NCBI RefSeq assembly: GCF_000372825.1
Contig: NZ_KB910516.1
Span: forward strand, 4,512,511 to 4,576,510
DNA length: 64,000 nucleotides
Direction: 5' to 3'
DNA from: Methylobacterium sp. 77
GTDB lineage: Bacteria; Pseudomonadota; Alphaproteobacteria; Rhizobiales; Beijerinckiaceae
Numbering within the stretch: the first letter of the stretch is position 1; each line of letters starts with the position of its first letter. Of the stretch, positions 35,274-47,922 are shown piece after piece. The translations under genes were made by a program, and so were the position numbers. The notes beneath the pieces were generated by a model. That model had not been told where the DNA came from. It saw nothing but the letters and a program-made list of their open reading frames with translations, and ran no database searches.

Positions 35274-36020
35274 ATGGCTGCGGGCATCGAAGGGACGGCA
35301 GCGGGGATCATCGACGACGGAGCGCCATCCTCGGCGCCACCGGAGGCGCGCGCCACGTCTCGACGCACCCTCGTCCTTCCGCTGGCGCTCGCCATGGGCT
35401 GGGGCGTGCTGCTCGGCTACAGCACCGTCCTCCTCACCAACGACACGCCGGCACGGCCCGAAACCGGCACGGCGCAGGCCGCCTTCAACGAACCGGGTCC
35501 GTTCGAGGATACGGGTGGCGCGTCACGCCCCAACCGCGGCGGCGCGCCCTGGTCGGACGTGACGGCCGGGCCCGGCCTAGAAGGGACGTCGGCCAAGGGG
35601 TCGATCAAGGGTTCGGGCGAGGGGGCGACCGTTTCATCGAACGTCCGGGCCGTGGCCCTCAAGCAGGATCTCGAGGCGGCGTCGCGGATCGATGGCGGCG
35701 CAACCGCGTCTCCGCCGATCGAGCCGGCAGCCTATGTCGGCCTCTGGGGACCCAACGAGATCGCCTGCCGTCGCGGAGCGAGGCGGCGGGGGTATATCCC
35801 GGCGCGGATAACCGAGGGCGGGGCACGGGCCGGAAACACGGTCTGCACCTTCCGCGACGGGCGCCGCCTCGGTGCGAGTTGGAGCGTGGCGGCGTCGTGC
35901 AGCGATGGAGGCCGGCGCTGGTCGTCGCAGGTCAAGCTGGTCGTCGACGGTGACCGGCTGACCTGGTCGAGCCCGCGAGGCGATGCCTCGTATATCCGGT
36001 GCGGACGCCGCGCGGGCTGA
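35274..36020 (+). CDS. Membrane-anchored protein with Cys-containing C-terminal domain
   Basis: This 248-residue protein is not recognised by family. A cytoplasmic N-terminal tail of about 30 residues precedes one membrane segment (LVLPLALAMGWGVLLGYS), a long Gly/Pro/Ser-rich linker (about 55-150), and a compact C-terminal domain of about 95 residues. The domain has four Cys (NEIACRRG, NTVCTF, AASCSDGG, YIRCGRR) and alternating beta-like strands (WSSQVKLVVDGDRLTWSSP). The Cys suggest an extracytoplasmic disulfide-bonded domain tethered by a flexible arm. The frame begins at the ATG at 35274 with GGGAGACGGCG just upstream. It is flanked by the AT-rich spacer before the Tad genes. Confidence 0.72.
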   Translation: MAAGIEGTAAGIIDDGAPSSAPPEARATSRRTLVLPLALAMGWGVLLGYSTVLLTNDTPARPETGTAQAAFNEPGPFEDTGGASRPNRGGAPWSDVTAGPGLEGTSAKGSIKGSGEGATVSSNVRAVALKQDLEAASRIDGGATASPPIEPAAYVGLWGPNEIACRRGARRRGYIPARITEGGARAGNTVCTFRDGRRLGASWSVAASCSDGGRRWSSQVKLVVDGDRLTWSSPRGDASYIRCGRRAG

Positions 36021-36750
36021 CGTCCAGGCGAGACAAGCGCCGAAATCTCGGCCTGCCGCGCGTTAGTCCTTACAGAGGACAGCGCGAAACCGCGATATCT
36101 TGGCATTGCCGGACAGCCATCATCCCATAGCAAATGACGACGCGGCATCCGCAAGCGGGCATCGATGGCCGCGCCTTGGAGAGAAAGCGCTTATTCTCCA
36201 ATGGCTCTTCGATACCTCGATGATCACTCAATCAAGCAGCGTATGAGTGCTCGCATAGATTGATTTTCATGATGAGCATAAGTTCTCATAAGAAAATCTG
36301 ACGCCACGGTATCAGCATGCGCCTGAGGCTTGAGCATTTAGGGCGAAATCGTTCGAAAGCGCACAATCCAAGACAGAACGATTTTGCGCAACTTACCTGA
36401 CGAGTGCTAGCGATTTACGCTCGGTCAGTGCCGCAGGCGAATTGAATACAACCATACCGGTGTCATTTAATTTTTGTTTCTCGAACTGGCCGAGAAATTA
36501 ATTTATATGAGATTTTTCTCATGCAATCTAAAAGTTGCATAATTCTGGCCGATACACGGTAGCGAAAAGGATAATATACTTATACATAGGTTGTTTTCTG
36601 ATTCGAATCAAACATAGATTAATTCCACATGCGCGGCCTGATAGCGAACGCCGCCGAACTTAGAAGATCGTATCAAGATTCTGTTATGAATTCGATCCGA
36701 TCCTTCGTCGCTGACCACATCAGATTCTCGGTTTTTCTGAAGTCACGGCG
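36021..36750. other. AT-rich gene-free region upstream of the Tad-like genes
   Basis: This 730-base stretch is visibly AT-richer than the core and has no supported gene. It contains several inverted repeats: CGAAATCGTTC at 36344-36354 with GAACGATTTTG at 36376-36386, a small ATGAG/CTCAT hairpin near 36507-36522, and TGCAA/TTGCA near 36523-36540. They may be regulatory or remnants of mobile DNA. I could not assign a promoter. Confidence 0.5.
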
Positions 36751-37197
36751 ATGGCTATGAAACAACTTCAAGGCAATACTAAGCGATCATTTTTCGATTG
36801 CACGCAAGGTACTTCGGCTGTCGAGTTCGCACTGGTCGTTCCAGTCCTGCTCGGCCTGTTCGCGGGCATCGTCGTGTTCGGCATCTATCTCGGCGCGTCA
36901 CACAATCTCAGGCAGCTCGCATCGGATGCTGCCCGTGCTTCGATCGCGGGTGTCAACGACCAGGAGAGAGCGGATTTCGCACGTCAGCGCGTCAGCTCCG
37001 CCCTGGCAGGTGGCGCCATGTTCAAGCCCGGAACCGTGGATGTCCAAGTCGGTCCCGATGCGGCGGATACGTCGCTCTACACGGTCACGTTGACCTTCGA
37101 TTCGAAGGCCCTCGGCTTTTCGGGCTTCTCCGGCCTCATCCCGATTCCGCCGGACCTGATCAAGAGCTCGGTGAGCGTGCGGCGAGGGGGCCTGTGA
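36751..37197 (+). CDS. TadE-like pilus-assembly protein
   Basis: This is a 148-residue pseudopilin-like protein of the TadE family. The short cytoplasmic lead ends in the prepilin-type sequence TSAVEFALVVPVLLGLFAGI, a Gly/Ser then Val-Glu-Phe followed by one hydrophobic helix, as in TadE/TadF. The rest (RQLASDAARASIAGV and beta strands ending SVSVRRGGL) is periplasmic. The family serves in tight-adherence (Flp) pilus assembly. No flp, cpa or tad ATPase genes are in the window. The ATG at 36751 is two codons before another ATG that could serve instead. The stop codon overlaps the next start as TGATG. Confidence 0.85.
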   Translation: MAMKQLQGNTKRSFFDCTQGTSAVEFALVVPVLLGLFAGIVVFGIYLGASHNLRQLASDAARASIAGVNDQERADFARQRVSSALAGGAMFKPGTVDVQVGPDAADTSLYTVTLTFDSKALGFSGFSGLIPIPPDLIKSSVSVRRGGL

Positions 37198-43992: not shown

Positions 43993-45180
43993 ATGCGTTC
44001 ATACGAGCCTCAGGACGAGGGCGAGGCGCAAGCCATCGTCGCCGATGCCGCCGGCCGGTCCGAGCCGATGCGGCTCGTCGGCGGGGGCACCAAGGCCGCC
44101 ATCGGCCGCCCCGCGCAGGACGAGGCGACCCTCTCGGCCCTGAAACTGTCCGGGATCACCCTGTACGAACCGGCCGAGATGGTGGTGGCCGCCCGCGCCG
44201 GCACGCCCCTCGCCGAAGTCCAGGCGCTCCTGGCCGAGCGCGGGCAGATGCTGCCCTTCGAGCCGATGGACCATCGCATCCTGATGGGCTCGGCCGGCGA
44301 GCCGAGCTTCGGCGCCGTGGCCGCGACCAACAATGCGGGTCCGCGCCGGATCAATGCGGGTGCCGCCCGCGACAGCCTCATCGGCGTGCGCTTCGTCAAC
44401 GGGCGCGGCGAGGCGATCAAATCCGGCGGCCGGGTGATGAAGAACGTCACCGGCCTCGATCTCGTCAAGCTCATGGCCGGCTCCTGGGGCACCCTCGGCC
44501 TCCTCACCGAAGTGACCTTCAAGGTGCTCCCGGTGCAGGAACGCGTGGCGACCCTGGCCTTCTCGGGGCTTGACGACGGAACCGCCGTGGCCGCCCTCAG
44601 CGCCGCCCTCGGTTCGCCGTTCGAGCTCACCGGGGCCGCCCATCTGCCGGGCGGCCTCGACGGGCCGAGCCCCCGCACCCTGATGCGCCTGGAAGGCTTC
44701 TCGGAATCCCTCGACTATCGCCTCGGCGAGCTGCGCAAGCTGCTCAAGCGCTTCGGCGAGCCGGAGATCATCGAGGACGAGATCGGTGCGGTCCTGTGGG
44801 CGGCGATCCGCGACGTGATCCCGCTGACGGAGCCGCGCGCATCCGCCGTGTGGCGGATTTCCACGGCGCCGACGCGAGGGCCCATCGTCACCGCCGCTAT
44901 CGCCGCGCGGCGCGAGGCGCGCTGGTTCTACGATTGGGGCGGCGGCCTCGTCTGGCTCGCCACATCGGCCGAGGGCGATGCCGGCGCCGAGATGATCCGC
45001 GCCGCCCTTCGCGCCACCGGAGGCCACGCCACTCTGGTGCGGGCCCCCGACGCGGTCCGTGCCGCGACCGCCGTCTTCGAGCCCCTGTCCGAGCCGCTGC
45101 TGCGCATGACGGCCGGGATCAAGGCCGCCCACGACCCCAAGGGCGTGTTCAATCCGGGTCGGATGTATGCAGGGATTTGA
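43993..45180 (+). CDS. glcE: Glycolate oxidase FAD-binding subunit GlcE
   Basis: This is a 395-residue FAD/PCMH-type subunit of glycolate dehydrogenase, which with GlcD and GlcF oxidises glycolate to glyoxylate. The binding domain shows MRLVGGGTKAAIGRP, LPFEPMDHRI and the glycine-rich GSAGEPSFGAVAATNNAGPR region. The protein ends with the family-typical KGVFNPGRMYAGI. The ATG at 43993 (with AGGA 5 bases upstream) was chosen over the frame start at 43897, whose extra 32 residues are low-complexity. glcD is not next to it in the window. glcF lies 1.36 kb downstream, with an AT-rich gene and a DUF2585 gene between, so the usual glcE-glcF adjacency is broken. Confidence 0.93.
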   Translation: MRSYEPQDEGEAQAIVADAAGRSEPMRLVGGGTKAAIGRPAQDEATLSALKLSGITLYEPAEMVVAARAGTPLAEVQALLAERGQMLPFEPMDHRILMGSAGEPSFGAVAATNNAGPRRINAGAARDSLIGVRFVNGRGEAIKSGGRVMKNVTGLDLVKLMAGSWGTLGLLTEVTFKVLPVQERVATLAFSGLDDGTAVAALSAALGSPFELTGAAHLPGGLDGPSPRTLMRLEGFSESLDYRLGELRKLLKRFGEPEIIEDEIGAVLWAAIRDVIPLTEPRASAVWRISTAPTRGPIVTAAIAARREARWFYDWGGGLVWLATSAEGDAGAEMIRAALRATGGHATLVRAPDAVRAATAVFEPLSEPLLRMTAGIKAAHDPKGVFNPGRMYAGI

Positions 45181-45181
45181 G

Positions 45182-45835
45182 ATGCTAACAAAAGACAATG
45201 TTATCAATGCGGCTATCTATGGTATTTTAAATGCAAATGATTTTTATGAGAAGATTTCAAATGGATTCTCTATAGATGGATCTGGCGTTGAAGGTCTTCT
45301 CCAAACAAAAATCGCCGAAGCAATTTTTGATATGCTTCCAAAAGATACGGACGGCTTTCTAAGCGAAGAGTCCATAGTTTTAGAGCATTCATTCAAAGAA
45401 ATTTTTGCGGAGTCTGGGGCCGGAAAATCACGTGGTCGAATTCCTAAGTTAGTTAACGGTGCAAAGCGCATTGATATTTTGATAATGAGCAAAGATGGGA
45501 AGCCACTTATACCTATCGAAGTAAAAAGAAATGCGGCAGCGGATGGATTTGCGGTGGATGCAAATCGGATTTTTGGAATTTTAAAGCGTTCTGATAACTT
45601 AGCCGGTGGTTCTGTGAAATTTGGTCTGATTTGTGGATTTATTTCTGGAAGAGGGCACTCAAAATCAGACTGTTTGGATGACATCAAACGGAAAAAAGCA
45701 AAGTGCATAGAAAATATTGAAAATAGCAACATATCTCAAGGAAATATGTATCATCAATTTGACGAACCTAAGAAATTTGAAGACGAAGGATGGTGGGTTG
45801 GCGGCGCGATTTGCGTGTATCTGCGGCGCCAATAA
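45182..45835 (+). CDS. AT-rich gene for a PD-(D/E)XK nuclease-like protein, horizontally acquired
   Basis: This encodes 217 residues with a base composition unlike all neighbours (21 and 24 G+C in two 60-base lines I counted; many A/T-ending codons). No family is recognised. The middle holds a PD-(D/E)XK-type core: a helix with Glu46 (TKIAEAIFDML), then Asp98 in KRIDILIMSKDG and Glu113-Val-Lys115 in LIPIEVKRNA, with spacing D-x14-E-x-K. These match the catalytic residues of many restriction-like nucleases. The C-terminal half has a Cys-Lys-rich segment and ends with GWWVGGAICVYLRRQ. AGGGA lies 5-10 bases before the ATG, and only one base separates it from the glcE stop, so it can be co-transcribed and coupled. 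No methyltransferase partner is seen. Catalytic activity is inferred, not shown. Confidence 0.78.
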   Translation: MLTKDNVINAAIYGILNANDFYEKISNGFSIDGSGVEGLLQTKIAEAIFDMLPKDTDGFLSEESIVLEHSFKEIFAESGAGKSRGRIPKLVNGAKRIDILIMSKDGKPLIPIEVKRNAAADGFAVDANRIFGILKRSDNLAGGSVKFGLICGFISGRGHSKSDCLDDIKRKKAKCIENIENSNISQGNMYHQFDEPKKFEDEGWWVGGAICVYLRRQ

Positions 45836-45903
45836 ACATAGAAACTAAAATAATATCAGTCAATAATGCGAATATTGTGCTGTCGTTTGTGATATTTTAT
45901 TAA

Positions 45904-45933
45904 GCCCCATGGCGATTTTCATCGCCATGGGGC
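45904..45933. repeat. 13-bp perfect inverted repeat at the AT-rich/GC-rich junction
   Basis: GCCCCATGGCGAT (45904-45916), a TTTC loop and ATCGCCATGGGGC (45921-45933) form a perfect hairpin exactly where composition returns from AT-rich to GC-rich. The left arm contains the ATG assigned to the DUF2585 gene. The right arm is inside its reading frame. No T-run follows. Confidence 0.9.
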
Positions 45934-46539: not shown

Positions 46540-47922
46540 GTGCAGACCAATTTCAGCCTGACGCAGCTCGCCGACCCGGCGATGGCGGCCTCGGAGAAGA
46601 TCCTGCGGACCTGCGTGCATTGCGGGTTCTGCACCGCCACCTGCCCGACCTATCTCCTCCTCGGCGACGAGCTCGATTCCCCGCGCGGGCGCATCTACCT
46701 GATCAAGGACATGCTGGAGGGCGGCAAGCCGGCGACGCCCGAGGTGGTCAAGCACGTGGACCGCTGCCTCTCCTGCCTGTCCTGCATGACGACCTGCCCC
46801 TCGGGCGTGCATTACATGCACCTCGTCGATCACGCCCGCACGCATATCGAGGAGACCTATCGCCGGCCTCTGAGCGACCGGCTCCTGCGCAGCGTGCTCG
46901 CCTTCGTGCTGCCCTACCCGAACCGCTTCCGCCTGGCGCTCCTGGCCGCCAAGATCGGCGCGCCGTTCCGGCCCCTCGTCGCCCAGCTTCCCCGCGTCGG
47001 CAACCGGCTCGCTGCGATGCTCGACCTCGCGCCGGCACTCCTGCCGAACCGCACCATCACCGACCGGCCGGGCACCTTCCCCGCCGACAACCGCGTGCGG
47101 GAAGCCAGCGCCCTGCTCCAGGGCGAGGCCGCGCCGGCCCGCGCCGGGCGCGTCGCCCTCCTGCGCGGCTGCGCCCAGAGCGTCCTGCGCCCCGATTTCA
47201 ACGAGGCGGCGATCCGTCTCCTCACGCGCCACGGCGTCGAGGTGGTCCAGGCGCAGGGCGAGGGCTGCTGCGGCGCGCTCACCCACCATATGGGCAAGGC
47301 GGATTCCTCGCACGCCCAGGCCCGGCGCACCATCGATGCCTGGATCGCCGAGATGGACGGCCAGGGGCTCGACGCGATCATCGTCACGGCCTCGGGCTGC
47401 GGCACGACGATCAAGGATTACGGCTTCATGTTCCGCGACGACCCGGCCTATGCCGACAAGGCGGCGCGGGTCTCCGCCATCGCCAAGGACGTCACCGAAT
47501 ACGTGGCAACCTTGGGCCTGATGCCGCCGCTCTTCGAGAGCGACCTCGTGGTCGCCTACCATTCCGCCTGCTCGATGCAGCACGGCCAGGGCATCCGGAC
47601 CGAGCCGAAGAACCTGCTGAAGAAAGCCGGCTTCACCGTGAAGGACGTGCCCGAGGGCCATATCTGCTGCGGCTCGGCCGGCACCTACAACATCCTCCAG
47701 CCGGAGATCGCCAACCGCCTGCGGGACCGGAAGGTCGCCAATATCGAGCGGATGCGCCCGGACGTGATCGCCACCGGCAATATCGGCTGCGCCACGCAGA
47801 TCGGGAAAGGCACCGCCATTCCGATCGTCCACACGGTGGAACTGCTCGACTGGGCGACGGGCGGACCGAAGCCGGCGGTGCTGGAGGGGCTTCCGGATCG
47901 GACTTTGCTCGCCGCGGAATAA
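46540..47922 (+). CDS. glcF: Glycolate oxidase iron-sulfur subunit GlcF
   Basis: This is a 460-residue subunit that passes electrons from glycolate to the quinone pool. Two [4Fe-4S] ferredoxin motifs lie near the N-terminus: CVHCGFCTATCP (Cys25-Cys35) and CLSCLSCMTTCP. Two CCG-type motifs follow: EGCCGALTHHMG, and HSACSMQHGQ with HICCGSAGTYN. The start is GTG 46540 with TGAGGAA just upstream. It is 112 bases after the DUF2585 gene. In relatives glcF usually follows glcE closely. The intervening DNA here is partly foreign. It converges on the ribbon-helix-helix gene. Confidence 0.95.
   Translation: MQTNFSLTQLADPAMAASEKILRTCVHCGFCTATCPTYLLLGDELDSPRGRIYLIKDMLEGGKPATPEVVKHVDRCLSCLSCMTTCPSGVHYMHLVDHARTHIEETYRRPLSDRLLRSVLAFVLPYPNRFRLALLAAKIGAPFRPLVAQLPRVGNRLAAMLDLAPALLPNRTITDRPGTFPADNRVREASALLQGEAAPARAGRVALLRGCAQSVLRPDFNEAAIRLLTRHGVEVVQAQGEGCCGALTHHMGKADSSHAQARRTIDAWIAEMDGQGLDAIIVTASGCGTTIKDYGFMFRDDPAYADKAARVSAIAKDVTEYVATLGLMPPLFESDLVVAYHSACSMQHGQGIRTEPKNLLKKAGFTVKDVPEGHICCGSAGTYNILQPEIANRLRDRKVANIERMRPDVIATGNIGCATQIGKGTAIPIVHTVELLDWATGGPKPAVLEGLPDRTLLAAE

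Follow-up and report, generated by a model that had tools for sequence, protein, structure and literature searches.

The best-described relative of the gene considered here is Tin of phage P2. The accessible text of PMC8594841 states that Tin blocks all Tevenvirinae and no other phage tested, and that of PMC8987985, citing Mosig 1997, that it poisons gp32, the single-stranded DNA (ssDNA)-binding protein of T4; in the available portion of a review of defence-system domains (PMC10952713), the domains given for Old-tin are AAA+ and SMC ATPases. In literature covered with limited reach into subscription papers and bioRxiv preprints, no report was found that links Tin to a nuclease core, and none of a gene of the present type at glcE. 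Here we analysed a 64-kb stretch of Methylobacterium sp. 77 (the window), which covers positions 4512511–4576510 of a 4.66-Mb genome consisting of one contig and in which a 217-codon gene is inserted behind glcE in the glycolate oxidase (glc) operon. As judged by sequence comparison, its closest known relative is Tin of phage P2, and the gene, which lies inside a metabolic operon, appears to represent a chromosomal branch of the Tin family that is new and has kept a conserved core of nuclease type. New here are the link to Tin, the correction of the predicted core to Glu37, the truncation of the adjoining DUF2585 gene and the finding that the glcE junction is used three times.

The insert is a 722-bp AT-rich block (45182-45903) with this one intact gene. 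Its guanine plus cytosine (G+C) content is 0.377, and that of the gene 0.390 (0.321 at third codon positions, GC3), compared to 0.682 for the 40-52 kb region minus the block and to a GC3 of 0.89-0.92 for the native neighbours glcE, DUF2585 and glcF. When 722-bp segments were taken across the 64 kb in 10-base steps, 9 of 6328 had a G+C content at or below that of the block plus 0.02. The abrupt drop reported in the initial annotation of this DNA is therefore real (0.377 against 0.68), and the gene does begin one base after the glcE stop codon (45178-45180), which forms the 5' edge of the insert. A program-made list of open reading frames (ORFs) had used an in-frame upstream ATG at 45167; the start at 45182 is preferred because the family alignment begins at this methionine. 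A Shine-Dalgarno-like AGGGA, provided by the 3' end of glcE, is located six bases ahead of it. There is no room for a separate promoter ahead of the gene, which takes the place of the DUF2585 start seen in other genera; its expression would therefore follow that of glc, presumably by read-through from glc transcription as the spacing suggests. No integrase was present within the insert, no direct repeats were seen flanking it at both edges, and neither the ORFs of the window nor a domain search placed a partner or methyltransferase gene next to it, as the initial annotation had stated.

The 3' edge (45903/45904) coincides with a 13-bp palindrome (folding z-score -5.9), whose right arm matches the IAMGR codons of native DUF2585 and whose left arm is an inverted copy of them. 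The palindrome is present once in the whole genome, and a repeated element was rejected on this ground; it may be a repair scar, produced by a fold-back repair event. Only one other patch of the window falls below 0.55 G+C in 600-bp segments (35951-37151, minimum 0.427), mostly between a hypothetical ORF that ends at 36020 and an ORF, TadE-like by eye, that starts at 36751.

A search of 5.8 billion proteins returned, besides the window protein, four relatives with identities of 48–62%, and an iterated search yielded 11 members in total, distributed in three subfamilies and including proteins named Methylobacterium sp. Leaf117 and J-077. Genome searches added seven more (G488, G717, G402, G944, G116, G135 and G113), the weakest match being G402 (8.4e-4), followed by G717 (5.7e-6) and G113 (2.6e-7); G116, G135 and G113 were found by profile search and missed by the single-sequence search of the family genomes. 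The latter gave only the window gene and, within long open frames of G198 (L004) and G213 (L005), two short matches that are 35–36% identical over ~76 residues (E 3.5e-4 and 5.6e-4). These two loci lie outside the ten-locus set described below, and no relative was seen among the ORFs of L004. The spread of the protein family is sporadic, with members in 2 of 110 other genomes of the genus, 3 of 243 of the bacterial family, 3 of 396 of the order and 1 of 384 of the class (overlapping samples). The window protein found no match at E 0.01 in phage and plasmid records, and matches to the family pattern in genome contigs and viral contigs were set aside, none being confirmed as a relative.

Alignment of 23 proteins (the 11 members, the 7 genome additions and 5 Tin proteins) revealed that Glu37, Asp98, Glu113 and Lys115 are present in all 23, Asp126 in 22, Arg96 in 21, and Glu68 and Arg129 in 20. 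The initial annotation had proposed a restriction-like core made of Glu46, Asp98, Glu113 and Lys115. These residues are indeed found at those positions, and the last three do not vary. Glu46, by contrast, is conserved in two of the subfamilies, whereas the third, that of J-077, has Arg or Asp instead. Because Glu37 is invariant while Glu46 varies, Glu37 probably provides the core's first acidic residue. By eye, the elements follow the order helix (Glu37), strand, strand (Asp98), strand (Glu113-x-Lys115), helix, strand; the assignment of the window protein as a putative PD-(D/E)XK enzyme is made from sequence. Sequence searches of the PDB gave no significant match for the family, the best being a kinase (0.073) and RM.BsaXI (0.054, over the RxD…ExK stretch), and none for Tin. 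P2 Tin matched no Pfam family.

The family and Tin profiles, compared with hhalign, gave 97.3% (P 2e-11) over 148 columns of the 226-column family profile, with the invariant residues in register, those of Tin being Glu35, Asp103, Glu121 and Lys123, whereas the reversed control reached 0.2% and 20 column shuffles at most 0.8%. Taken alone, subfamilies a, b and c gave 89.5, 94.9 and 68.9%, respectively. The family is thus homologous to Tin. P2 Tin (AAD03308.1) and the window protein have in common the series E, E, RxD, ExK, R and their single-gene nature, and are of 253 and 217 residues, respectively. By contrast, their identity is 17-18% in profile alignments, in one of which the C-terminal part is unaligned, and P2 tin adjoins old in the phage whereas the window gene is a chromosomal cistron. 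A possible implication of this alignment is that P2 Tin itself possesses a PD-(D/E)XK core.

Other known systems are more distant. HSDR_N and HSDR_N_2 (PF04313, PF13588) share the RxD...ExK stretch, and HSDR_N_2 matches 7 of the 11 members (E up to 1, best 0.0013); unlike in these systems, no helicase or translocase accompanies the window protein. Seven HSDR_N_2-type proteins of Methylobacterium were compared by hhalign with the family profile, which scored no higher than 6.3% with any one of them and 10.9% with the whole set, over 25 columns; for the Tin profile the maximum was 11.2%. In view of these weak matches of ~25 columns, the reading as a plain HSDR_N subunit was discarded. PADLOC PDC-S02, a code that we take to mean candidate single-gene defence, has a local match of 43 residues across the core of the window protein, but its 308-position model is matched at 220-262 only, and not by the other 10 members. 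Restriction-modification (R-M) differs in that the window gene has no cognate methyltransferase beside it.

The glcE-glcF junction is empty (191–276 bp) in the six nearest surveyed relatives by glcE (87.5–89.7% nucleotide identity). The survey of the genus comprised 111 rows from 109 of 111 genomes (G044 and G025 twice; G015 and G370 missing). In 77 rows glcE was inside the fetched range upstream of glcF; in the remaining 34, no glcE above 60% identity was within range. Sixty-nine of the 77 junctions measure 21–276 bp and eight exceed 600 bp, namely those of the window, of J-077 and of six genomes (L112, L114, L152, L158, L161 and L165) with sequence of G+C 0.64–0.78 and ORFs that are pyridoxamine-oxidase-, papain- or SOUL-like by eye. 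Both the empty sites and the other cargo that the initial annotation had proposed to look for in relatives are therefore found, and its view of a foreign, gained, single-gene insert of nuclease type is backed by the composition, the empty sites and the invariant E...D...ExK core.

Both AT-rich junctions among the eight long ones carry members of the nuclease family. With G488, a member is located at the glcE/glcF junction in three loci from two bacterial families. The gene of G373 (J-077; G+C 0.415) starts 10 bases past the glcE stop and ends 2 before the glcF ATG, the insert having replaced the 47-51-bp spacer of its near relatives, and that of G488 (G+C 0.45) starts 9 bases past the glcE stop and overlaps the glcF ATG with its TAA. 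These two copies are only 20–26% identical to the window protein. As the GlcE and GlcF proteins of the window and J-077 are 77–80% identical, vertical descent of the nuclease would need very uneven rates, and we infer that the two genes were more probably gained separately. A single shared origin of the three glcE-sited genes was unsupported, as 0% of 200 bootstrap trees, built on 23 rows, grouped them in a clade of their own. It was yet not rejected when the three were held together among the 15 rows of known genomic position, from which P0002 (Leaf106), P0003 (CM6247), P0004, P0005 and P0008–P0011 are excluded (approximately unbiased (AU) test, p 0.213; several long branches).

Ten family loci were read, those of the window, G373, G488, G116, G055, G135, G717, G402, G944 and G113, and three of them show defence surroundings. 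The G116 member (L236 4943-5581) belongs to a type III-like R-M operon, where it is flanked by Res and Mod; its first ATG overlaps the Res stop (TGATG), the alternative start being 11 bases on, and it ends 7 bases before Mod. The G055 member adjoins genes for a C5-methyltransferase, Vsr, an integrase fragment, REase-ARP and GmrSD_N. The short G135 member (L237 1598-7193) is found among caspase, trypsin-like peptidase and HNH genes, which we infer to be defence surroundings, possibly an uncharacterised defence cluster. Elsewhere, members are located between thiolase and SDR reductase genes (G717, with an ORF, patatin-like by eye, separating it from the reductase), between cobS and cobT with an ORF that is GNAT-like by eye (G402), behind a WYL gene (G944) and near genes that are nor-like by eye (G113). 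Seven of the ten start within 40 bases of, or overlap, the stop of a co-oriented gene; besides the three glcE-sited genes and that of G116, these are G717 (27 bases, GTG start), G402 (33) and G944 (6 or 39 depending on the start). In nine, the G+C content is lower than that of either flank (up to 3 kb) by more than 0.05; for G113 the difference from one flank is 0.02. Regarding Tin itself, ten loci were found and the neighbours of four scanned (10 proteins): L221 adjoins Wadjet genes and an Avs1b-like gene, L223 adjoins NsnA/PD-T4-2_A-like and methyltransferase genes, L225 has a GajB-like helicase ~4 kb away, and the two scanned neighbours of L226 gave no match. The term defence-type used in the initial annotation is backed by the homology to P2 Tin and by the relatives in R-M or other defence surroundings, the activity itself being putative.

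Taken together, these results suggest that the insert is probably a horizontally gained, single-gene anti-phage nuclease or effector of Tin type that rides on the glc operon. The protein would recognise a complex formed in phage replication, probably that of ssDNA and ssDNA-binding protein. This target is proposed from the example of Tin, for which poisoning of gp32 is reported. The PD-(D/E)XK-type core of the window protein (Glu37, Asp98, Glu113-x-Lys115) would then cut nucleic acid on meeting phage replication intermediates. Its expression would rely on read-through and translational coupling with the glc operon. Several observations weigh against this reading. The Tin hidden Markov model (HMM) reaches 1e-3 in only 3 of the 11 members, with E 0.018 for the window protein, 0.16 for P0005, 0.18 for P0002 and 7.0 for P0004, the last inside the range of shuffled sequences (best 1.6). 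The PADLOC Tin model matches 4 of the 11 (E up to 1, best 3e-5) and not the window protein, which matches PDC-S02 instead (E 1.4e-4). The Pfam matches to PDDEXK_4, HSDR_N and HSDR_N_2 are all below the curated cut-offs, the best being PDDEXK_4 for the window protein (14.5 bits, cut-off 22.3) and HSDR_N_2 for P0007 (19.2, cut-off 25), and those of the window protein span residues 92–119. HSDR_N_2 is matched by only 2 of 72 Tin proteins (best 0.061). Seven of the ten family loci have no clear defence neighbour in the stretch read. Finally, the accessible text of PMC9519451 reports tin from a lambda-vir screen, so T-even specificity may not cover everything.

Free-standing homing endonucleases are single intergenic genes that occur sporadically and recur at the same site in distant hosts, traits that the window gene shares. 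Such a nuclease would cut the empty junction at the conserved 3' end of glcE, be copied in by repair and persist by site-specific spread and not by host benefit. The three loci in two bacterial families with divergent members directly behind glcE, the sporadic distribution from genus to class, and the single gene without integrase, which at 7 of 10 loci fits tightly behind a neighbour of the same orientation, are compatible with this scheme. We nevertheless regard it as unlikely, since members are also located at unrelated sites (thiolase/SDR, cobS/cobT, after a WYL gene, within an R-M operon) and the nearest named relative is an exclusion protein, not a homing enzyme. Moreover, part of DUF2585 was lost in the window and a spacer replaced in J-077, unlike a clean homing insertion, and one clade of glcE-sited members, although not rejected, received no bootstrap support. 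A broader proposal, that Tin-type proteins including P2 Tin are PD-(D/E)XK nucleases whose bacterial branch spreads by self-insertion, homing to operon junctions such as the glcE 3' end, seems quite unlikely; if true, promoterless expression would be gained by junction homing, and the class would join homing-type mobility with phage exclusion.

A junction that tolerates any short gene, where the nuclease landed by chance, would be compatible with a defence role and would account for the six long junctions with other sequence and for the presence of DUF2585 itself at this place in three other-genus loci. It is improbable as the whole explanation, given that both AT-rich long junctions hold this one rare nuclease family and that a third member occupies the same junction in another bacterial family. 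We consider it very unlikely that the gene is a remnant, inactive or in decay, of what was once a larger defence island or prophage: the missing partner gene, the foreign composition and the palindromic scar at one edge would suit such a remnant, but the frame is open over its full length, the invariant core residues are kept, and start and stop are tightly placed. A Tin-type nuclease gained as a single gene is the reading that we favour.

The features of the locus are listed in Table 1.

Table 1. Features at the glcE/glcF junction of the window (window coordinates)
Feature	Position	Strand	Evidence
glcE, glycolate oxidase FAD subunit	43993..45180	+	NCBIfam NF008439 E 1.2e-82, 277.6 bits (cut-off 284)
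Tin-like, putative PD-(D/E)XK-type nuclease gene, 217 aa	45182..45835	+	conserved Glu37, Glu68, Arg96-x-Asp98, Glu113-x-Lys115, Arg129
Non-coding AT-rich tail of insert	45836..45903	+	sequence, composition
13-bp perfect palindrome, 4-nt loop, at foreign/native boundary	45904..45933	.	sequence; comparison with L203, L204, L206
DUF2585 gene, 172 aa	45909..46427	+	Pfam PF10755 E 9.2e-67; NF002099 match from position 30/195
glcF, glycolate oxidase iron-sulfur subunit	46540..47922	+	NF008434 460.9 bits (cut-off 333)

The order glcE–DUF2585–glcF is found in three loci of other genera (L203, L204 and L206), where DUF2585 starts one base past the glcE stop or overlaps it; the available part of a neighbourhood analysis in PMC12419801 also ties DUF2585 to glcE and glcF. 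The window DUF2585 lacks ~33–39 N-terminal codons present in these loci, including a probable membrane helix (by eye), and begins at a new ATG within the palindrome with no ribosome-binding site evident by eye. DUF2585 is thus the older occupant of the junction and was truncated by the insert. It is present in 57 of 298 genomes of the family, counting the window's own, and in a genus sample of 59 only as the window copy and a 42-residue remnant (G045). Remnants of its 3' end were observed in the glcE-glcF gaps of relatives L080 (tblastn) and L077 (by eye), and these indicate repeated loss of DUF2585 in the genus. In L026 (G007 C2 4286790-4287970), glcE and glcF each appear to be split into two frames, which suggests frameshifts or assembly errors.

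The invariant acids and lysine shared by the two groups predict that Tin is an enzyme with testable active-site residues. The location of such genes close behind housekeeping genes, at glcE in three cases, indicates one way in which single, putative defence genes can be placed outside defence islands and so be missed by island-based searches.
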